DNA of 36,068 nucleotides, from IMG/VR virus record IMGVR_UViG_3300027413_000020, positions 1 through 36,068 of that record. One strand, given 5' to 3'. Position numbers and translations under genes: made by a program. The notes under the pieces were generated by a model. That model was not told the DNA's origin, ran no database searches, and saw only the letters and a list, made by a program, of their open reading frames with translations. Numbering within the stretch: the first letter of the stretch is position 1; each line of letters starts with the position of its first letter. Source of the stretch: a virus. Shown here in pieces: positions 4,744 through 34,296 of this stretch.

Positions 4744-4775
4744 TAAATATACGAAGAATTACTTAGGAATCCACA
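4744..4775 (-). promoter_or_regulatory. Early-type promoter before the kinase operon, possibly dual
   Basis: Minus strand TGTGG (one mismatch to TTTGG), 19 bases ending in TTCTTCG, then TATATTTA. The same box continues as ATATTTATAC, close to the late-type motif, so the enzyme cluster may be read both early and late. Confidence 0.7.
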
Positions 4776-5548
4776 TTAATTTGCGATACTGTTTTAAAAG
4801 TCGTTGTATAAGGTGTTGGTTTAGGGTTTTCTAAGTCAAACAGAGCTTTTACATGGCTAAATATTTCTAAATTTTGTTCTTGAGTACGAGGTGACTCGTA
4901 TATTTCCCAATTTTTCCCTTTTATCTTTTTACCATTTTTATCGGGTCCACGTGATTTAGATTTTAACCATAATACTGCTACTCGATCAATATCTTTCCCA
5001 TAACATTCTTCATAACATTGAGCATATATTGCCCCTTGTAAATCATATGTTGTTTGTAAGTGATTAGATGTTTTAAAATCTATAATCCAACGTTCCATTT
5101 TACCATCAATTTCGATCTCACATACTAAATCACAAGTACCTGCTACTTCAATTTTATCTGAAAATAAATGTACTTCGGCTTCAATTAATGTTGGGTTATA
5201 AGTTTCCCAAAAGTCTACAAAACGTAAAAACATTTGCCATACATGAGAGGGCATTCTAGGGTTACCATCATCATACAAAAATTTAATTTCTTTACCGTTT
5301 AACCAGTCTTCAATCATTTCATGTACTAATGTTCCTTCTTCTGCTGCTTTCTTAACAATCCATTCCGCACTATAACCTACTTTTTTAAGCCAGTCCTCAA
5401 AATATTTACCTTTTGGGTAAGAGCTCAAAACATGAGTTACTGATGGGTAGTATTTACCATTTCGTCTATAATACCTTGAATCAGGCATTGTAACTTGTTG
5501 GTAATCATCCGAAATTTCTAATAACCTTTTGTATGATTTTTTGATCAT
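4763..5548 (-). CDS. PD-(D/E)XK nuclease, RecB/Cas4-like exonuclease
   Basis: The residues of a RecB-type nuclease are visible in order: the helical GTLVHEMIEDWL segment with His76 and Glu77, an acidic residue in LIEAEVHLF (121-129), AGTCDLV with Asp140, the core DFKT with Asp157 and Lys159, and the downstream LQGAIYAQCY with Gln171 and Tyr175. Such proteins process DNA ends in recombination or replication. The N-terminus MIKKSYKRLLEISDDY is weakly leader-like, but the domain is otherwise an ordinary replication-module enzyme. It overlaps the primase gene upstream by four bases and ends 36 bases before the kinase gene. No iron-sulfur cysteine cluster is obvious, so Cas4 in the strict sense is unlikely. 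Confidence 0.9.
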   Translation of the reverse strand: MIKKSYKRLLEISDDYQQVTMPDSRYYRRNGKYYPSVTHVLSSYPKGKYFEDWLKKVGYSAEWIVKKAAEEGTLVHEMIEDWLNGKEIKFLYDDGNPRMPSHVWQMFLRFVDFWETYNPTLIEAEVHLFSDKIEVAGTCDLVCEIEIDGKMERWIIDFKTSNHLQTTYDLQGAIYAQCYEECYGKDIDRVAVLWLKSKSRGPDKNGKKIKGKNWEIYESPRTQEQNLEIFSHVKALFDLENPKPTPYTTTFKTVSQINVDS

Positions 5549-6474
5549 AAGTTTAACTTTAAGTTAAGAAGACTTGAAAATGTAAAGGGTTGTGCTTCCT
5601 GAATTTTATTGGTAAATAATGTGAACCCCATATCAGAGGGGTCTTTCCCTTCTAATTCTACTACATATAATTTTTTTCCTGCTTTAAGTAACTGTTCAGA
5701 TATTTTGCAAGTTGATTTTATTGCATCTTCATCTAAAGCTAAGTATACTTTTTTAACACTATTTGTTACTATTTTCTTCATTAATTTTTTAGAAATATTT
5801 TTCCCAAATAGGGGAATAGCATTTCTTTTTATTGCTATGGCATCAAATGCTCCTTCACATAAAACTATAGGAAGATCCCAGTTAATTCTATTTTCAAAAC
5901 CAATAATATTTTTATCTGAAACTGGGGCATCATATTTCCTATGTGCGTCAGGTAAAAAAGACCGTGCTATAAAATATTCTAATTCTTCATCAGCGTTGTA
6001 TGTAGGAATAATAATTTTATTTGCAAATCTTCCTTTTTCACAATATCCTATTTGATATGAAAAAATATCATATATGCTTAACCCTCTATTTTTAAGATAA
6101 GTTAAAGCATGTCTTGCTAAAATGTTTGATTTTGAAATTTGATGTAAAGGGATATACTCCTCAGGGAGTTTAATATCAAAATGTTGAACTACATTATCAT
6201 ACTTTTCGGTAGTACCTAATATAGAATGTAAAGATGTAATTTTATCTTTACCTACTTTTTTTCTTTTAAATAAAGAACTTAGGGTTTTACCTCTAGCATC
6301 ACATACCCAACAATGCCAAGGATTTAGATTCTTTTTAGTTGGTACTAAATTTACCTCTAATTTTTTCTTCCTATGGTTACAAAAAGGACACGCGAACGCA
6401 TAATTTCCTCTAGAAGTAGAAGAACCCTTTCCTAAAACGGACTCTACTAGCCCTAATAACATATTATTAACCAT
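5545..6474 (-). CDS. DNA primase, DnaG type (zinc finger plus Toprim)
   Basis: The N-terminal 70 residues contain a zinc finger with CPFCNH (Cys29, Cys32, His34) and HCWVC (Cys55, Cys58). The Toprim domain is clear: PIVLCEGAFDA gives the catalytic Glu207 and Asp211, and LALDEDA gives Asp248 and Asp250 for metal binding. At 309 residues it resembles the compact T4 gp61-like primases and has no fused helicase. It would synthesise RNA primers for lagging-strand replication together with a helicase encoded elsewhere. It is the central gene of a three-gene operon: three bases after the 91-residue gene and overlapping the nuclease gene. The promoter at 6772-6803 probably drives it. Confidence 0.93.
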   Translation of the reverse strand: MVNNMLLGLVESVLGKGSSTSRGNYAFACPFCNHRKKKLEVNLVPTKKNLNPWHCWVCDARGKTLSSLFKRKKVGKDKITSLHSILGTTEKYDNVVQHFDIKLPEEYIPLHQISKSNILARHALTYLKNRGLSIYDIFSYQIGYCEKGRFANKIIIPTYNADEELEYFIARSFLPDAHRKYDAPVSDKNIIGFENRINWDLPIVLCEGAFDAIAIKRNAIPLFGKNISKKLMKKIVTNSVKKVYLALDEDAIKSTCKISEQLLKAGKKLYVVELEGKDPSDMGFTLFTNKIQEAQPFTFSSLLNLKLNL

Positions 6475-6771: not shown

Positions 6772-6803
6772 GGAATATACGAACCCTAGATCAGTTCTCC
6801 AAA
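6772..6803 (-). promoter_or_regulatory. Early-type host-like promoter before the replication operon
   Basis: Minus strand TTTGG, 19 bases ending in GGGTTCG, then TATATTCC. It lies at the 3' end of the GIY-YIG gene and faces the 91-residue gene, primase and nuclease. It is 25 kb away from the cluster of similar promoters and thus an independent confirmation of the motif. Confidence 0.82.
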
Positions 6804-7195
6804 TCTTTTGGAAAAAATTTACCTAAAATATTATCGTTGTATGTTGTTTCGGGCTTGTTTAATACCTCATAGATTATTTGGTAATGCATTTCCCAATATG
6901 TAGCTTGTTTTTTTGTTTCACACAAACGGAGGATGGTTTTATCAAATTTACCTTCACCTATAGATTTAACATCTTCTAGTAATGGTTTAGAAGAACCCCA
7001 ATAGGTTTTCCAATTTGATTCTTTAATTACAGTTCTTTTACGTTTGTATCCTTTTAGAGGTGGGATTTTTCTAGTATTTTTGAAAATTTTTTTCCCAATA
7101 TAAAACTTATTATTTTCAGTATTTGTTATTTTATAAACAAAACCATAATAATCTTCAATGTTAAAACCCTCTGGATAATTCCAGTTATGAATCAT
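6791..7195 (-). CDS. GIY-YIG-family nuclease (Seg-like)
   Basis: The signature is GFVY (18-21) followed by KFYIGKK (30-36), the variant GIY...YIG core, then a basic stretch KGYKRKR and the conserved NWKTYWGSS block (61-69) seen in many phage GIY-YIG proteins. The later acidic helix TYWEMHYQIIYEV would supply the metal-binding Glu. Single-domain proteins of this kind in T4-like phages are usually homing endonucleases. It is wedged between the tail-fibre genes and the replication operon: its start overlaps the upstream 102-residue structural gene by 11 bases, and its 3' end carries the -33 box of the next promoter. A free-standing homing endonuclease is my best call. Confidence 0.87.
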   Translation of the reverse strand: MIHNWNYPEGFNIEDYYGFVYKITNTENNKFYIGKKIFKNTRKIPPLKGYKRKRTVIKESNWKTYWGSSKPLLEDVKSIGEGKFDKTILRLCETKKQATYWEMHYQIIYEVLNKPETTYNDNILGKFFPKDLEN

Positions 7196-22837: not shown

Positions 22838-24715
22838 TTATAATGTTGTTATTCTACCTTGTAGATCTAGATCAGGGAATTTTACTTCAAAAATACTTGG
22901 GTCTAAAGAAGGGTATATAATTTGTTTTATTGTTGCTCCATCCATATCATAAGCGAATGGGGAATATTCTCCATTTACCTTATTTATAAATTCAACACTT
23001 TCTACTGTTTGAACACCTTCTACCTTATCTAAAAGAGTATATATATCTCTTATAAAAATTGGTTGGTTTATTTGCCAACTATCTCGGTTAAAGTATTTTT
23101 TAAGTTCTTGTAAACATAAATTTATAGTAGCTGTAGTACTAAAATTAGGTCTAGGAATTATTTCAAAATTAACTCCAATGTTTATAATAAAAGCATCTTT
23201 TATATTAACAGCATCTGTTAACATTCTATATTCAGATAAAAATGTTTCTAAATTTTGTTTAAGAGCATTATTAGATACTGATAAAGTTCCATCTTGTTGT
23301 TCTGATAGAATATATAAAGACATATTACTAAAGTTTTGGGAGAAAATATTATCATTTCTAAAGTTAGGTTTGATATTATCTTCGGGAACTATATAAGCTT
23401 TAGATATTTTACCATATCTTGATGGTAAAGAATAACATCTAATTATATAATCTTCTCTTGTAACTGTTCTTAATTGAGTTGGGTAAGCTGAAAGAGCATT
23501 TTGTCTAATTTGTTCATTTGTATCTCCTGCACCCCCTCCTGAAGCAGGTCCTGGGTTATTAAATGCTAATGAATCTACTACAGCAGAAGATATAGTAGGA
23601 TTTAAATTATTACCATATACAGCTATTGATCCTGTATGAAATGTATTTAATGTATTTGAAGGTATATTTGAAGCTGCTCCACCACCTATAACATATTCTA
23701 CATTTAAAGTAGTATTTGCTGGGGCTAAACCATATGTTTGAGTATATTGGAAATTTGAAGGGTCCCAAGCTGTAGTCAATTTATCTTGACCATAAGGTAA
23801 TCCTAATCCCACTTCATCAGGGTTAGGTATTATTACTTCATCTGGGTTAGATGATACTCCAGGTCCAAATTGTAATTCTAAAGTATTATCATCTCTAAAT
23901 CTAGAGACAAATCTTTGAGGTACCTTTTTAATTTTTAATAAATAAGGTACAGTACTATTGTATTGAGATAAATTAGGATCATTTGTAGCTATATTATCTA
24001 CCTCATCAAATATACTTTCTTGAGCTAAATAAGGAACTTCATACCATCTAGTGTCTTCACTATCTGTTACTTTTATAATTCTAATAATATTACTGTTTGA
24101 TATATTAACAGTATTAAATCTTTCGGCTAAACCAAATTCAAATTCTTGGTTTACAACTTTTCCTGCTGATGCCATAACTGATTTTTTAAGTAGATAAAAT
24201 GATGGTAAATTATCATCATCTACAGAATAAACAGAAACATCTGTTGGGTCATAAGATCCGGATAAGGTGAAATCTATATTAGAATTTAAGTAAAAATATA
24301 TATCTGTTTGGTCTTGAGATCTAATTTGAGCACCTTCTTCAATTTGAAGGGCATAATTAAAATTAGGTTCAATAAAACCTTGGGTATCTGTTGAAGGTAC
24401 AACTTGGTACACATCTACAGATACTGTAGACGCTCTAGTTACTTTAGGATTATAACCATAATTATAAGCTAATGTAAGTAAATTATTTCTTTGTTTAGCA
24501 TATTGTAGAAAATTCTCTTGAATTTGATTTTCTGTATAAAAATTTAAAACGTCACCAACATATGATGCCATTTCCATTAACATAAGACCTGGGGAGGCTT
24601 CGTTAAAATCGGTATAAGTGTCAGGATAATAAGTTTCTGCAAACTCTATCATCCTTTGTTTTAAGGCGTCAAAATCTTTATTAAGATATTGTATTTTTTT
24701 AGATGGTTGAGACAT
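22838..24715 (-). CDS. Baseplate wedge protein, T4 gp6 / gpJ-like
   Basis: The N-terminus with DFDALKQRMIEFAETYYPD followed by FNEASPGLMLMEMASYVGDV and NFYTENQIQENFL (residues about 14-70) is characteristic of gp6/J-family wedge proteins, which build the iris-shaped ring of contractile-tail baseplates. At 625 residues it is close to the size of T4 gp6. The middle part contains GGGAGDTNEQIRQNALSAYP, the conserved loop before the J-type domain (EDYIIRCYSLPSRYGKISKA). The C-terminal third has INIGVNFEIIPRPNFS. It overlaps the gp25-like gene by 17 bases, matching the usual W-J pairing in contractile tails. Confidence 0.93.
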   Translation of the reverse strand: MSQPSKKIQYLNKDFDALKQRMIEFAETYYPDTYTDFNEASPGLMLMEMASYVGDVLNFYTENQIQENFLQYAKQRNNLLTLAYNYGYNPKVTRASTVSVDVYQVVPSTDTQGFIEPNFNYALQIEEGAQIRSQDQTDIYFYLNSNIDFTLSGSYDPTDVSVYSVDDDNLPSFYLLKKSVMASAGKVVNQEFEFGLAERFNTVNISNSNIIRIIKVTDSEDTRWYEVPYLAQESIFDEVDNIATNDPNLSQYNSTVPYLLKIKKVPQRFVSRFRDDNTLELQFGPGVSSNPDEVIIPNPDEVGLGLPYGQDKLTTAWDPSNFQYTQTYGLAPANTTLNVEYVIGGGAASNIPSNTLNTFHTGSIAVYGNNLNPTISSAVVDSLAFNNPGPASGGGAGDTNEQIRQNALSAYPTQLRTVTREDYIIRCYSLPSRYGKISKAYIVPEDNIKPNFRNDNIFSQNFSNMSLYILSEQQDGTLSVSNNALKQNLETFLSEYRMLTDAVNIKDAFIINIGVNFEIIPRPNFSTTATINLCLQELKKYFNRDSWQINQPIFIRDIYTLLDKVEGVQTVESVEFINKVNGEYSPFAYDMDGATIKQIIYPSLDPSIFEVKFPDLDLQGRITTL

Positions 24716-25124
24716 TTGTAAATGTTATTGTTATTTCATCGGTTATATTAGTATCTTTTATAGAGTATTTAAAATTAATAAGTGCTACATGGTCATCTTC
24801 TTGAAAACCTATACTTACATCTTTTACTTCTATTTGTGGAAAATATTCATCAATCCCATCTTCTATAAAAGCTTTTATATCATCTTTGCTTTCATCTGTT
24901 AAGGGTTCAAATAATAAATTTCTTAACCCAGAACCAAAATTAGGTTTAAATACCCTTTCTCTTCTAGAAGTTAAGAAAAAATTTAGTAAATTAGCTCTAA
25001 CAGCATCTTTAGTTAAATAGGTAGAATTAATACCTGTATTCCCATCAAAGGGAATACGTAAACCTATTCCTCTATTAGGGAATAAGTCTGATTGTGTTTT
25101 ACCTATAAAATTATATCTAGCCAT
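24699..25124 (-). CDS. Baseplate wedge protein, T4 gp25 / gpW-like
   Basis: The 141-residue protein carries the family signature RRERVFKPNFGSGLRNLLFEP (residues 54-74, quoted here only in outline: R-R-E-R, P-N-F-G-S, L-F-E-P), including the conserved EPR-type core that holds the wedge together. Length is typical of gp25 (about 130 residues). It shares one base with the upstream 159-residue gene and overlaps the gp6-like gene downstream. This is the most certain structural call in the window and defines the tail as contractile. Confidence 0.95.
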   Translation of the reverse strand: MARYNFIGKTQSDLFPNRGIGLRIPFDGNTGINSTYLTKDAVRANLLNFFLTSRRERVFKPNFGSGLRNLLFEPLTDESKDDIKAFIEDGIDEYFPQIEVKDVSIGFQEDDHVALINFKYSIKDTNITDEITITFTNVSTI

Positions 25125-25648: not shown

Positions 25649-27706
25649 TTAGAATCCTCTAAATAACGCTTCATTTCTAAATTTCTTTTTCTTTCTAATC
25701 TTAACATTTCCTTTTTTAAGGGAAAATGTAAACTTTTTTGATAGTCCTGTTTTCTGTAACCCATATTGAATTTCTAAAGGAGTATATTTTTTTGCTTTTA
25801 AAAAGTTTATTAATACAGCAATATTTTTTAAATCATCTCTATTTTCCCTAAGTTTAGAAAAATTATCTGATATTGTTACTTTATTAATAGAATTTACTAT
25901 GCTTAAATTATTAGCTTTTTTAGCACCACCTAAATCCCTAATTAGACTTCTTACGGAGGCTCTTTGTGAACTTGTAGTTCTAACTTTATTTTTTAGAATA
26001 GCCATAGCACCAATTCCTCCCCTAGTAATGTTAGGGATATTTTTAAAGAATGATATTTTCATTGAACTTATAAGTATTGCAACTTCTCTTACTTTTTTAG
26101 GGTTTGGGGTTTCATTAGGTGATGATGCTTTAGATTTAGCTTTTGCTCTATCTCTTTTTTTCTTTTCTAATTTATCTGCTAAATCTTTTTCTGCTGCTAT
26201 ACTATTAACTAAAGATGTAACACCTGCTTGTGCTTCATTTGCTTGTAGTTGTTGTTCTTTTAAATCAATATCTAACATTTCTTCAGCATCTGATTCTTTG
26301 AAAGTATCATCATTACTATCTGGGGATGCTATAGTATCGTATCCATCAATTATAAATTTAGCTTCGTTGAATAATACAGCTGTATTACTAGCATAAGTTG
26401 GATTTGTAGAACCTTTTATATCTCCATTGGGGTCAAAAATATTTGCATATCGTCTTATAATACTAATGTTTTGATCTACAAGTTCTTCTTTTTCTACATT
26501 GATACCATACCCTAAGTATATTAAATCATACACCCCATTTCCTGTTTCACTATCTTCAGGACTTTGTGGTCCCATAGTAATTCCTGGAATAATGATATTT
26601 TTAATTTGAGGTACTTGTTTTTCAAGGTTTGATAATGATGTTTTAGCGGATGTAACGGCATCACTCATAGCTTGATCTAAATAATTATCTTGGGTATAAG
26701 GACATTGTGATAGATTTTGTTTTAACTGTTCTAAAGCAACTATCATTGTTATTATTTCTCCTCTAACACCCGCAAGAGATACTATTACTGAATCTAAGAA
26801 ATTGGAAAGTACTTTTAAGAAATCTCTTATTTCCTCAGCTTTATGAAATTCCATTTCATTAGACTTAGTACCAGCTTTTACAATAGTCCCTACAGTTGTA
26901 TAACGAGCGGGGATGGGTATTCTTTTAAGAAGTTTAGCTATAACAATATAAATTTTAATTAATATATTAATAATTTTAATTATTGTACTAATAGTTTGCA
27001 TATAACCTATAATTTTAGATATAATGGCTTCTACAGTAACTACTAATTGAATAATTTTTTCTACTCCTTCAGCAAGTTTATCAGGACGAATAAAATCTTT
27101 TAGTATTTTATTTACCATTTCAACTTCTTTACCAAAGAAAGCATTTAATACATTTTGAGGGCTAGTAAAAGGAAGTAAAAACATTTTTACAGCGTTTAAT
27201 TCATCTCCTAAACCTATTAAGTCTATAGGGTTAATTGCATCAATAGCAATACCTTCTGCTACATCTATTTTAACTTTTATTTCTTGTAACTTCTTATTTA
27301 TTTTATCTGCCCCAGGAATGTTTTCTGAAAATTCTACAGGGACTTCTATTCTATCTATTTCATTTTTTATTTCAATTAAGGCCTTAATTGTTTCTTCTTT
27401 CTTCCTTTTTTCATCTTCAGTTAATTCCTTATCTATTTCTTTGGCAACAATCTTTTTTAAATCAAGTTTACCTAACATATCAACAAACTTTTTTAACTTA
27501 CCAGCATGTTTGTCAATAGCCTTTTGAACAGGACCATCTGGGGGTAGAGCTTTACCCATAATATATCCTAGAGGATTACAAAAATCAATACTATTAATTT
27601 CGTATAGTTTATCATTTACAAATAAAAGTTGATCTTCAATTTCATCTGTAGCTTTTCCTACGTTAGTGGATACTTTTCCTAATATGGGTGCAAAAGGGAT
27701 AGCCAT
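25649..27706 (-). CDS. Large helical baseplate/tail protein with hydrophobic core segment
   Basis: The 685-residue protein is strongly helical and Lys/Ile-rich. Residues 215-265 are a long hydrophobic run with few charges (IISKIIGYMQTISTIIKIIN, then ILIKIYIVIAKLL), flanked by coiled-coil-like stretches (residues 85-150). A charged region about 505-560 (DLADKLEKKKRDRAKAKSKA) precedes a very basic C-terminus ending KKKKFRNEALFRGF. Hydrophobic helices of this kind occur in tape-measure and pilot proteins, but its position between the spike and gp25 genes fits a hub protein as well. Its start shares one base with the spike-tip-like gene. Function is undecided. Confidence 0.83.
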   Translation of the reverse strand: MAIPFAPILGKVSTNVGKATDEIEDQLLFVNDKLYEINSIDFCNPLGYIMGKALPPDGPVQKAIDKHAGKLKKFVDMLGKLDLKKIVAKEIDKELTEDEKRKKEETIKALIEIKNEIDRIEVPVEFSENIPGADKINKKLQEIKVKIDVAEGIAIDAINPIDLIGLGDELNAVKMFLLPFTSPQNVLNAFFGKEVEMVNKILKDFIRPDKLAEGVEKIIQLVVTVEAIISKIIGYMQTISTIIKIINILIKIYIVIAKLLKRIPIPARYTTVGTIVKAGTKSNEMEFHKAEEIRDFLKVLSNFLDSVIVSLAGVRGEIITMIVALEQLKQNLSQCPYTQDNYLDQAMSDAVTSAKTSLSNLEKQVPQIKNIIIPGITMGPQSPEDSETGNGVYDLIYLGYGINVEKEELVDQNISIIRRYANIFDPNGDIKGSTNPTYASNTAVLFNEAKFIIDGYDTIASPDSNDDTFKESDAEEMLDIDLKEQQLQANEAQAGVTSLVNSIAAEKDLADKLEKKKRDRAKAKSKASSPNETPNPKKVREVAILISSMKISFFKNIPNITRGGIGAMAILKNKVRTTSSQRASVRSLIRDLGGAKKANNLSIVNSINKVTISDNFSKLRENRDDLKNIAVLINFLKAKKYTPLEIQYGLQKTGLSKKFTFSLKKGNVKIRKKKKFRNEALFRGF

Positions 27707-28122
27707 TATTTAGTATATGTTAATTCTGAGTTCATGTTCTCAAGTTCATTTTTTATCTTTTTTGTTACCCTTTTTAAAATTACTCCCGCTCTGTTTGAAG
27801 CTACAATTGGAACCCCATGACCATCAACAGAAGTTTCTAATTGTGATCCAGCCTTAGCTAATTCTCCTGCTATTTTTTCTAATAATCTTTTTAGAATATC
27901 TCCCTTTGATACAGGGTGGAGAGCACCTAAACCTAAATCAATACGTGGAGAATTAATGATACATTTATCTTTACTATCAAAATTAATAGTCCCACCTGAA
28001 CCTAGAGACACCGCTTTATTAGCATTGATAAATGCTGAATCATCGCGGGCATTGATAAACACTCTACCTGAATTTAGTATAATATGTTCTCCCGTATAAG
28101 GGAATTCTGGTGTGTAAGCCAT
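27706..28122 (-). CDS. Beta-helical spike-associated protein, 138 residues
   Basis: The first 65 residues repeat short strands with the rhythm HIILNSGRVFINARDDSAF, AFINANKAVSLGSGGTINFD and CIINSPRIDLG, as in the C-terminal beta-helix of gp5/VgrG-type spikes. The C-terminal half is helical (KGDILKRLLEKIAGELAKAG). It lies directly downstream of the gp5-like protein with one base between them, so it likely completes or caps the central spike. It is too short to be a full spike by itself. Confidence 0.8.
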   Translation of the reverse strand: MAYTPEFPYTGEHIILNSGRVFINARDDSAFINANKAVSLGSGGTINFDSKDKCIINSPRIDLGLGALHPVSKGDILKRLLEKIAGELAKAGSQLETSVDGHGVPIVASNRAGVILKRVTKKIKNELENMNSELTYTK

Positions 28123-28123
28123 T

Positions 28124-29725
28124 TTAACTTTCTATTAAGGTGTAAGTAAGTTTATATTTACTTCTTGATTGTTCTTTATATTTTCTACTTTTATCATTTA
28201 GTTCTAAAAATATTTTAAAATCTTCTGAATTAGCAAATACTTGACAACCTGCTGACCATGTATTTACTCTGGTTGAAGTACCTCTTGGGTTTGATTTATG
28301 AATATTAATCCCAAAACCACCTGTTTTTTCTTTAAGATTTGGATCATCATAAACTAAATCTTTATTCATATCTCTATATACAGTTACATTTCCTCCTTGT
28401 TGACGAAGTGCTAAATAAGCACCATTATGATACCCAAACATATAAGCCCCAGGATACTGTCCTGGTTTTAGTATAGCAGAACCAGCAGAAGAATATGGTT
28501 TAGTCATATAATCATCTCCAGGTTGAGTTGTGATAGCAAATACAAAAACTTGTAATTTTCCACTTTCATCTTTATATTGTATTACTATTTTATCATCAAA
28601 TCTATTAGTTACGGTTTTACCTGCGTTTTTATTTCTAATTCCTGTAACATTTAATTCCCAAATACCATCATTATATTTAAAGTTATTAGCTTTGTAAAGA
28701 TCTTCTATTTCTTTACCTAATTTATCTTGATCATCAAGTGATAAACTACTAGAGGCAATTTGACCTGTGAATTCATAAGGTGTAGGATTTGCATCACCAC
28801 TAAACTCTCCGCCTAATCCTGCCATTCTGTCAACTTGTGCCACAATAGCTTGTGAAGTATCCCCTCCTGATGTTATATTAAGGTTAAGTGATTGTAAATT
28901 TATATAAGCTGGTTCAAATGCCCTTAAGGGTTGACCAGAAAGCATATATAAAGATGAACCATCCCTATTAATATCTTCAAAAATTGGATCCCATGGGTTT
29001 TGAGATGTATCTCCTTTTTGTTTATTTCGTATAATAACCACGGGTTCACCATTTTTTCCTTCAAACCCCCAATCATTAATGGGTTGTTGTTTTGGAGTTG
29101 AACTACCTAACCTAATACTATTACCAAATCTACCTTCTACAATAACATCCCCTTCACTAGGTAATAAGGCTCTAATTTTATCATTTTCTTGAAAAGTATC
29201 TCCAAATTTTAGTTCTTCCGGGGATTCGAAAGGGTCTTGAGTTACACCACTTTTAAATGAAAAATTTGAATTATTTCTTTGTTTTGTTTCTAAATATTTT
29301 AAATCAGGAAATCCATTATGTTGAATATTATTCCATAAAGATGCAACTGCAAAATAATAATATTTTATAGATGTAGGGTCACCCTCATTCATCATAATAC
29401 TAGGGCCTGATATAATTGCTACAATTTCGTTGGCAACTGGGTATTTAGTTATATTTGTTAATAAGGGGGATGCTATGTTAGCTGCGGATAAGTTACCAGT
29501 GTCAATTTGGGTTCCCATAGGATGAAATTTAATAAATCCTGTTTGGTTATAATCCCAATCCCCTTGTTTATTATATTTCCAATTAGTTTGTCTTGTAGAT
29601 GTAGTATTAGGAGTAATAGAAACATCTAACACTCTCCCAAATATAATATTAGATGAGTTATTTTTAGATGACTTTCTACTACTTTTTCTATTCTGTTTAC
29701 TTAAACTAGGGGAATCGATTGCCAT
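28124..29725 (-). CDS. gp5-like baseplate spike with L,D-transpeptidase-like C-terminal domain
   Basis: The N-terminus (after a Ser/Lys-rich tail) has IIFGRVLDVSITPN (residues 27-40) and later EGDVIVEGRFGNSIRLGSS, patterns expected of the OB-fold region of gp5/VgrG hub proteins. The C-terminus holds a cell-wall-active site: His476 in INIHKSN and SAGCQVF with Cys494, the His...S-x-G-C arrangement of YkuD-type L,D-transpeptidases. In T4 gp5 a lysozyme is inserted; here a different peptidoglycan-acting domain may replace it, giving local wall opening during injection. It is followed by the beta-helical protein and shares one base with the upstream 119-residue gene. The spike role is probable, the active site clear, the exact reaction inferred. 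Confidence 0.85.
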   Translation of the reverse strand: MAIDSPSLSKQNRKSSRKSSKNNSSNIIFGRVLDVSITPNTTSTRQTNWKYNKQGDWDYNQTGFIKFHPMGTQIDTGNLSAANIASPLLTNITKYPVANEIVAIISGPSIMMNEGDPTSIKYYYFAVASLWNNIQHNGFPDLKYLETKQRNNSNFSFKSGVTQDPFESPEELKFGDTFQENDKIRALLPSEGDVIVEGRFGNSIRLGSSTPKQQPINDWGFEGKNGEPVVIIRNKQKGDTSQNPWDPIFEDINRDGSSLYMLSGQPLRAFEPAYINLQSLNLNITSGGDTSQAIVAQVDRMAGLGGEFSGDANPTPYEFTGQIASSSLSLDDQDKLGKEIEDLYKANNFKYNDGIWELNVTGIRNKNAGKTVTNRFDDKIVIQYKDESGKLQVFVFAITTQPGDDYMTKPYSSAGSAILKPGQYPGAYMFGYHNGAYLALRQQGGNVTVYRDMNKDLVYDDPNLKEKTGGFGINIHKSNPRGTSTRVNTWSAGCQVFANSEDFKIFLELNDKSRKYKEQSRSKYKLTYTLIES

Positions 29726-30084
29726 TATGCGCTTTCTTTAACGGTTTCTTGAGCTTTTGTTTCTAACTCATTTAATGAAGCAAATAACATTTCTTTATCT
29801 TCATCTGAAAGTAATTCTTCACCTTCAGCTTGCTTAGAATTCATAGCACGTTGTACTATACCCGCCATCTTTAATAAATGGTCATCATTTTTTATTGATA
29901 ACTCCATATATTCCTTAATTAAAGGAACTATAATTGTTGCTTCTCCTGGGGTTGTGACTAAAGGTTTTAGACCCTCAATTAGGCTTTTTAATTGACCCTC
30001 CTTATCTTTTTGATTGGTATGTATCTCTTTTAAGAGATCTGCGAAGTTCTTTTTACCGAAAAGTTTAATTTGTTCGAAATCCAT
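29725..30084 (-). CDS. Small helical protein opening the tail operon, 119 residues
   Basis: The protein is all-helical with a basic N-terminal part (IKLFGKKNFADLLKEIHT) and an acidic C-terminus (LLSDEDKEMLFASLNELE). No family is recognised. A late-type motif ATATTTATAT at 30098-30107 lies 13 bases before its ATG, and all genes down to 21345 follow with overlaps or small gaps, so it is the first gene of the baseplate transcript. Candidates are a tail chaperone or a small baseplate part. Confidence 0.83.
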   Translation of the reverse strand: MDFEQIKLFGKKNFADLLKEIHTNQKDKEGQLKSLIEGLKPLVTTPGEATIIVPLIKEYMELSIKNDDHLLKMAGIVQRAMNSKQAEGEELLSDEDKEMLFASLNELETKAQETVKESA

Positions 30085-33828: not shown

Positions 33829-34296
33829 TTAAATGTATTTTTTACCTATTAAATTAATTGATTCTTCTATTGTCTCAAAGTCAACAGCAAAAAACTCTCT
33901 ATTTGAGTTAACTCTGTATTCATCTAAAAAGTTGTGGACTTCTTGTTCTAATTCAAAACCATTAAAACAATGAAACCCATACTCTACCTTATAAGGTAAA
34001 GCAACACCTGTTGCATTTGATAATTCTTTAGCTCTTTTATGAGGATCTTTTGAAGTAAATCCTACTTTATAAGTACCGGGCATTGTAGGGTTTGATAAAA
34101 CATATACCCAAGAATCAAAACCACCATCTTTATTTTTGTACTTATTAATTTTACGTCCTGTATAGTAAGTAACGTCTTCCCAACCATTATCTTTGGGGGT
34201 AAGTGTGAAGTATTTTGCAATATCTAATCCACGACCTGTAAAATCGTCTTTAACTGCAACGTATTGCTTTGCTTCTTCTATAGATAACCTTTTCAT
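33829..34296 (-). CDS. T5orf172 (GIY-YIG superfamily) domain protein
   Basis: Residues 62-140 match the T5orf172 pattern: SWVYVLSNPTMPGTYKVGF (GIY-YIG core with Tyr65, Tyr76 and Gly79), SKDPHKRAKELS with Arg88, an acidic/His helix ELEQEVHNFLDEYRV, and the closing NREFFAV. This domain is found in phage and bacterial nucleases. The first 60 residues are unique. It follows the early-type promoter at 34315-34346 with an 18-base gap between promoter box and ATG. DNA cleavage or host DNA takeover is plausible; no target is indicated. Confidence 0.87.
   Translation of the reverse strand: MKRLSIEEAKQYVAVKDDFTGRGLDIAKYFTLTPKDNGWEDVTYYTGRKINKYKNKDGGFDSWVYVLSNPTMPGTYKVGFTSKDPHKRAKELSNATGVALPYKVEYGFHCFNGFELEQEVHNFLDEYRVNSNREFFAVDFETIEESINLIGKKYI

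Follow-up and report, generated by a model that had tools for sequence, protein, structure and literature searches.

The protein of 533 amino acids encoded on the minus strand at positions 28124..29725 of the window, by which we mean the whole 36,068-base IMG/VR virus record analysed here, is probably the central spike of a contractile tail, and our structural models suggest that it carries a tethered cysteine peptidase of the YkuD fold that would open peptide cross-links at entry. The open reading frame comprises an OB fold with the start of a beta-helix, a linker and a C-terminal YkuD-like domain. The spike body, of the gp5/gpV type, occupies residues 1-280 (28886..29725, minus strand) according to the structure model and a family of 80 loci. 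It is joined by a linker of residues 281-339 (28709..28885, minus strand), recognised from its sequence and from a drop in pLDDT at residues 271-300, to the YkuD-like (L,D-transpeptidase-fold) domain of residues 340-533 (28127..28708, minus strand), which is defined by matches to phrog_3000 and phrog_33083 and by the model.

A sequence-only reading of this DNA had pointed to His476 and Ser491-Ala-Gly-Cys494 at the C-terminus, and both are present in the protein, with codons on the minus strand at 28298..28300 for His476 and 28244..28255 for the SAGC stretch (Ser491 at 28253-28255, Cys494 at 28244-28246). Alignment and profile comparison make His476 the presumed catalytic base and Cys494 the presumed nucleophile, and the alignment shows a second invariant histidine, His433 (28427..28429, minus strand). 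The spacing H-x17-C and the sequence [ST]xGC bear out the proposed YkuD-type arrangement: they match the L,D-transpeptidase motif, printed as HXX14-17-(S/T)HGCh in the excerpted text of one source (PMC9638812), except that its second His is Ala here. The motif H-x14-18-[ST]xGC occurs twice in all ORFs of the window (0.06 occurrences expected after shuffling); the other occurrence, in an HD-phosphohydrolase-like ORF, looks accidental. Among 73 relatives the second-His column holds Ala in 64, Glu in eight and His in one (L166, the only relative to read SHGC), while three proteins far above the Pfam YkuD cut-off (L269, L272 and L275) read TNGC, TAGC and TNGC. Because genuine YkuD proteins can read TNGC or TAGC and L166 reads SHGC, the SAGC of the window falls within known variation, and the second His, which is common without being universal, was not taken to define the YkuD fold superfamily.

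His433, His476, Ser491 and Gly493 are found in all 180 domain copies and Cys494 in 179 of them, figures that are inflated at positions 476 and 491-495, as most loci were found by patterns including FGIN[IC]H or SxGCQV and any single pattern was enough for inclusion. N359, G362, R364, D378 and T399 are likewise present in 180/180, and these five, together with His433, lie outside every search pattern. The copies come from 177 loci, with the window counted twice (L001 and L002); most of these loci stem from pattern scans, each of which was limited to its 80 best loci (out of 594 confirmed in viral sequences and 291 confirmed in genomes). Judged from these alignments, conservation is decisive in showing that the His/Cys observation is real. 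In the window-type spikes (window, L018 and L179) all ten checked residues are kept in 3/3 despite a divergence of the domains to about 57% identity, suggesting that the active site is still under selection.

Sequence searches alone did not lead to this family. Neither Pfam nor NCBIfam gave a match for the window protein, and a PDB sequence search returned nothing significant. No YkuD match (PF03734) was above the Pfam gathering cut-off and only 4/73 relatives matched at E <= 1 (best E 0.009), hence the domain is filed as a YkuD-like fold and not as a PF03734 member. The case was therefore built on structure and conservation. Profile alignment to sets of genuine YkuD proteins from bacterial genomes brought His476 and Cys494 into register with the YkuD His and Cys for two of three sets (E 0.0058 and 0.036); the third set gave nothing significant (E 0.21). 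An unrelated control scored E 0.04, so that the profile comparison barely beats the control.

The AlphaFold2 model of residues 330-533, built from 73 aligned sequences, reached a pLDDT of 95.9 and a pTM of 0.91. When this model was compared with the PDB by Foldseek, the 50 rows listed included no L,D-transpeptidase and nothing below E 0.2; the family came up only upon subsequent re-alignment with VIA-align, where 46 of 992 chains scored Z >= 2 and 45 scored Z >= 5. By title, 40 of the 41 listed entries belong to the L,D-transpeptidase/carboxypeptidase family (Z 5.5-8.7), the remaining one being ParM (Z 2.5). The best match is the L,D-carboxypeptidase Pgp2 (Z 8.7, 124 residues, 3.8 A), and a Gluconobacter enzyme (Z 8.4) and LdtMt2 (Z about 7) are also found. 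VIA-align itself notes that Z under 8 may be unspecific; for this model, one family filling the list with a gap beneath it is outside what that note describes. The sequence-only reading had named as its refutation a fold that keeps His476 and Cys494 apart; the fold predicted is of the L,D-transpeptidase type, which supports that reading, and the modelling strongly supports a YkuD fold for the C-terminal domain.

The model of residues 1-300 (pLDDT 79.3) agrees best with the P1 baseplate spike (Z 7.1, residues 23-268). Other matches are the spikes of A-1(L), PVC, Algoriphagus, Streptomyces and AFP, P2 gpV, VgrG, Mu and T4 gp5, the last (Z 5.6) aligning window residues 8-270 with gp5 residues 6-433, which flank the gp5 lysozyme. 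Ribosomal and initiation-factor OB folds are mixed among these matches and most of them cover only residues up to about 140. OB-only proteins score similarly to spikes, so the beta-helix assignment relies on the longer spike alignments and on needle fusion in relatives. On these models the spike body is an OB fold that most likely runs into the beginning of a beta-helix, of the gp5/gpV/VgrG type, and the description of the protein as gp5-like holds for its N-terminal half, given the P1, P2 gpV and T4 gp5 matches and the setting in a baseplate operon. It is not T4 gp5 proper, as no lysozyme match was obtained in Pfam or PHROG and the needle is a separate ORF. The suggestion that the domain sits where T4 gp5 carries its lysozyme needs correcting as to position, since the domain here is C-terminal, after the start of the beta-helix, with the needle encoded by the following gene.

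The minus-strand order is a 119-aa gene, the 533-aa spike, a 138-aa gene, a 685-aa gene, a 159-aa gene, the gp25-like gene and a wedge subunit, and this cluster is a contractile-tail baseplate operon with the gp25 and wedge genes downstream of the spike. The spike is placed in such an operon because of the nearby baseplate wedge gp25-like gene (24699..25124, minus strand; profile match), which is accompanied by the baseplate wedge subunit (22838..24715, minus strand; phrog_219/phrog_10646). Gene order is identical in locus L018. The conserved 119-aa gene immediately upstream of the spike (29725..30084, minus strand) has equivalents at the same position in immuto (L013), Mel-JY01 (L011) and L018. 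Elsewhere in the window, exonuclease and DNA primase genes (PHROG matches) lie at 4763-6474, and small genes at 6791-7195 and 33829-34296 have homing-endonuclease-type PHROG matches, the best match of the former being a family labelled NAD synthetase.

The 138-aa protein encoded next to the spike (27706..28122, minus strand) is a needle, of the sequence type that relatives have joined to their spike body; in Flavobacterium phage immuto, for instance, the spike body continues directly into needle sequence, while the window has the needle as its next gene. No match to the 138-aa needle was obtained when the phage collection was searched by tblastn. Enzyme and needle genes meet at the junction TAA-A-ATG (28120..28126, minus strand), and the same 1-nt gap occurs in all three window-type spikes; judged from this sequence, ordinary re-initiation would fit better than read-through into the needle. 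Of the 80 loci in the family of this spike body, 40 carry the needle on the spike chain and lack cargo, another 36 encode it in an ORF of its own and four are untyped. C-terminal cargo of at least 180 aa is found in 15 loci, all of which have a separate needle ORF, as against 21 of the 61 loci without cargo (hypergeometric 2e-6, 76 typed loci). Statistically, this association is not independent of descent: when 60 spike bodies are placed on a tree, supported branches show three or more changes of cargo and only two of needle state, and a paired test of the two is without power. We therefore describe cargo with a separate needle as a pattern and not as a proven association.

Several domain types occupy this cargo slot. 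A YkuD-like domain is the cargo in L178, which shares its contig with L018, and in L179; Peptidase_M15_3 is found above cut-off in L200, L203, L207, L215, L223 and L234 and as a weak match below cut-off in L232, and VanY is the cargo in L192. Further spikes with C-terminal cargo of at least 180 aa are L185, L186, L189, L198 and L199; the cargoes of L198:2593-5004 (542 aa) and L185:3546-4913 (192 aa) gave no Pfam or PHROG match.

The domain is also borne by a second, different spike, found in giant phages. In LR756502 it forms the C-terminus of a protein whose residues 3-81 match phrog_430 (baseplate hub subunit and tail lysozyme), and the relative of this spike in LR745206 matches Pfam Phage_base_V. 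This spike type was found on 17 viral contigs, which together with LR756502 and LR745206 gives 19 copies, some of them near-identical; the Cys is kept in eight and lost in 11. Ten Cys-to-Ala copies all have Arg364 changed to Gln, and the LR745206 copy has Ser at the Cys position and Ile at that of His476. The Cys-less copies (L282, L283, L285-L290, L297, L298 and L311:3232-4758), reading Ala or Ser, are natural inactive variants. L292-L296 keep the Cys and have Tyr aligned at His433, with a His adjoining. Near the LR745206 spike copy, which looks dead, a 537-aa gene (L311:1319-2932) ends in SLHGAGLAIDLKF, which appears M15-peptidase-like by eye. Upstream of the LR756502 spike, the C-terminus of the hub-like L009:3-2177 weakly matches GH19 (E 0.0064, below cut-off), and thus glycan and peptide enzymes may share one baseplate.

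An hhalign comparison of the two spike bodies gave E 0.27 and no alignment, indicating that two distinct scaffolds bear the domain, either by two captures or by one transfer. In the domain tree the window-type copies form one clade (100/100) apart from the giant-phage spike copies, while an AU test on eight spike rows did not reject a single clade (p 0.37). Five of ten records searched (LR756502, LR745206, G009, G010 and G013) additionally encode a free-standing copy of the domain (ORFs of 198-274 aa), intact in the four that were read, and these free copies in giant phages are presumably lysins. The other five records, including the window-type G014 and G015, have one copy each, although IMG/VR records may be fragments.

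Outside these spikes the domain belongs to a large and mostly unannotated family, phrog_3000, labelled as of unknown function (E 7.1e-26), and it also matches the C-terminal part of phrog_33083, an endolysin family (E 3.5e-16). By tblastn it was detected in 24 of 30 matching phage records, the other six matching the spike body only. It is present in Bacteroides phages SJC03 and DAC16 and their relatives and in two giant phages. In crAss-like phages it is a free gene of about 205 aa, located near the terminase gene in most of those read (L003-L005, L008, L014, L016 and L017, mostly annotated as hypothetical). These free-standing proteins are homologous to the window domain (37-50% identity by tblastn) with the same conserved residues, one of them being named peptidoglycan-binding domain 1 protein, and on sequence grounds they are candidates for a cell-wall enzyme of these phages. 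In P2-like Pseudoalteromonas phages the domain gene lies between the tail tube and chaperone genes. Of nine longer domain proteins scanned, five carry a fusion partner, PG_binding_1 in L129, L083, L067 and L097 and Amidase_2 in L161. Two domain copies stand adjacent or near each other on several bacterial or MAG contigs (L124, L127, L138, L140, L155 and L175).

In the mechanism that we propose, three tethered copies of the domain would be carried by each trimeric spike. Sheath contraction would drive the spike across the outer membrane, whereupon the needle, made as a chain of its own, would detach or be pushed aside, and Cys494, activated by His476, would attack the L,D bond adjoining residue 3 of stem peptides; cross-links at the puncture site would in this way be opened by hydrolysis. 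The domain would act on peptide links as the gp5 lysozyme of T4 acts on glycan strands. The sequence, its conservation and the operon are observed directly and the fold and the spike are strongly supported, while we infer the catalysis, the bond specificity, the trimer and the order of these events. Peptide links, and not glycan, are supported as the predicted target, as related spikes carry M15/VanY peptidases in this slot.

We prefer hydrolysis to transpeptidation because whatever else was identified in the slot is a hydrolase of the M15/VanY type, and because free relatives are fused to peptidoglycan-binding and amidase domains, that is, they keep the company of lytic enzymes. These two observations speak against an enzyme that truly works as an L,D-transpeptidase or by exchange, joining stem peptides anew or capping them with other amines, so that the wall would be loosened at entry without a hole, or resealed after it. 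We consider such an enzyme unlikely but worth keeping in mind, as the fold is common to enzymes with exchange activity, the Tlde1 profile (PF10908) matches 2/73 relatives weakly (best E 0.042), and the T6SS effector Tlde1a, from a related machine, both trims and exchanges according to the excerpted text of PMC9638812. An extension of the idea, in which phrog_3000 would be a phage L,D-peptidase superfamily serving lysis and entry while the spike copies exchange links and cause no lysis from without, is highly speculative.

Not every copy on a spike has to be an enzyme, because the Cys is lost in most copies of the second family (11 of 19), ten of these 11 having also lost Arg364, and the domain is retained nevertheless. 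A non-catalytic, peptidoglycan-binding or structural module is nonetheless distinctly improbable for the window lineage, where every checked residue has been kept through considerable divergence. The lack of a significant YkuD sequence match could also mean that the His/Cys pair belongs to some other cysteine-enzyme fold (NlpC/P60, CHAP or sortase) or is accidental, an explanation that seems very remote in view of structural matches that are nearly all L,D-transpeptidases. In NlpC/P60 and CHAP enzymes the Cys comes before the His in the sequence; both were set aside, since the His precedes the Cys in the window domain.

The favoured reading, a spike-borne peptidase, can be compared with several known systems. 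YkuD/L,D-transpeptidase enzymes (Pgp2, LdtMt2, LdtGo and YcbB) share the predicted fold, the His-x17-Cys spacing, the [ST]xGC sequence and the strand-loop-strand placement of His and Cys. Unlike them, the window domain is below Pfam cut-offs, has Ala for the His of SHGC, possesses the extra invariant His433 relative to their motif and is borne by a phage spike. T4 gp5 resembles the window spike in having an OB fold, a beta-helix, an enzyme for the cell wall on its puncturing device and a needle apart from that enzyme, but gp5 is made as a single chain, cleaved on maturation, in which a lysozyme follows the OB fold and precedes the needle, whereas the window has a C-terminal domain of peptidase-type fold. 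The excerpted text of PMC3004832 describes gp5 as cleaved between lysozyme and needle, at Ser351/Ala352, with the lysozyme fully active only once the needle leaves; proteolysis thus separates the needle in T4, and a gene boundary does so in the window. The separate needle gene may give the window spike a T4-like freedom without a protease. The T4 layout of two lysozymes, a tail enzyme and a free lysin, is mirrored in some giant-phage relatives with a different enzyme.

Tlde1a shares the Cys L,D-transpeptidase fold and delivery by a contractile spike-bearing machine, but it is a separate effector used against rivals, whereas the window domain is fused to a phage spike and presumably serves entry, and the sequence relation between them is not significant. 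The hub gp15 of cyanophage A-1(L) has a baseplate hub peptidase domain that lyses host cells, as reported in the excerpted text of PMC10966104, and, unlike the window spike, combines lysozyme, endoglucanase and peptidase domains. As far as the excerpted texts go, YkuD has already been published as a phage lytic domain (PMC5017753, PMC8310338, PMC13284279), although a rare one, with ten YkuD proteins listed in PhaLP (PMC8310338), and so has a contractile machine with an L,D-transpeptidase as effector (PMC9638812). No report of a YkuD-type domain on a phage spike was recognised in the open-licence literature searched.

Comparison of the cargo slot suggests that the spike enzymes of these phages are interchangeable cell-wall peptidases, with the needle on a chain of its own. 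CrAss-like phages, in which the domain is free-standing, are among the commonest gut viruses, and the predicted fold, the named residues and the natural Cys-less variants make both the spike and the crAss-like copies directly testable.
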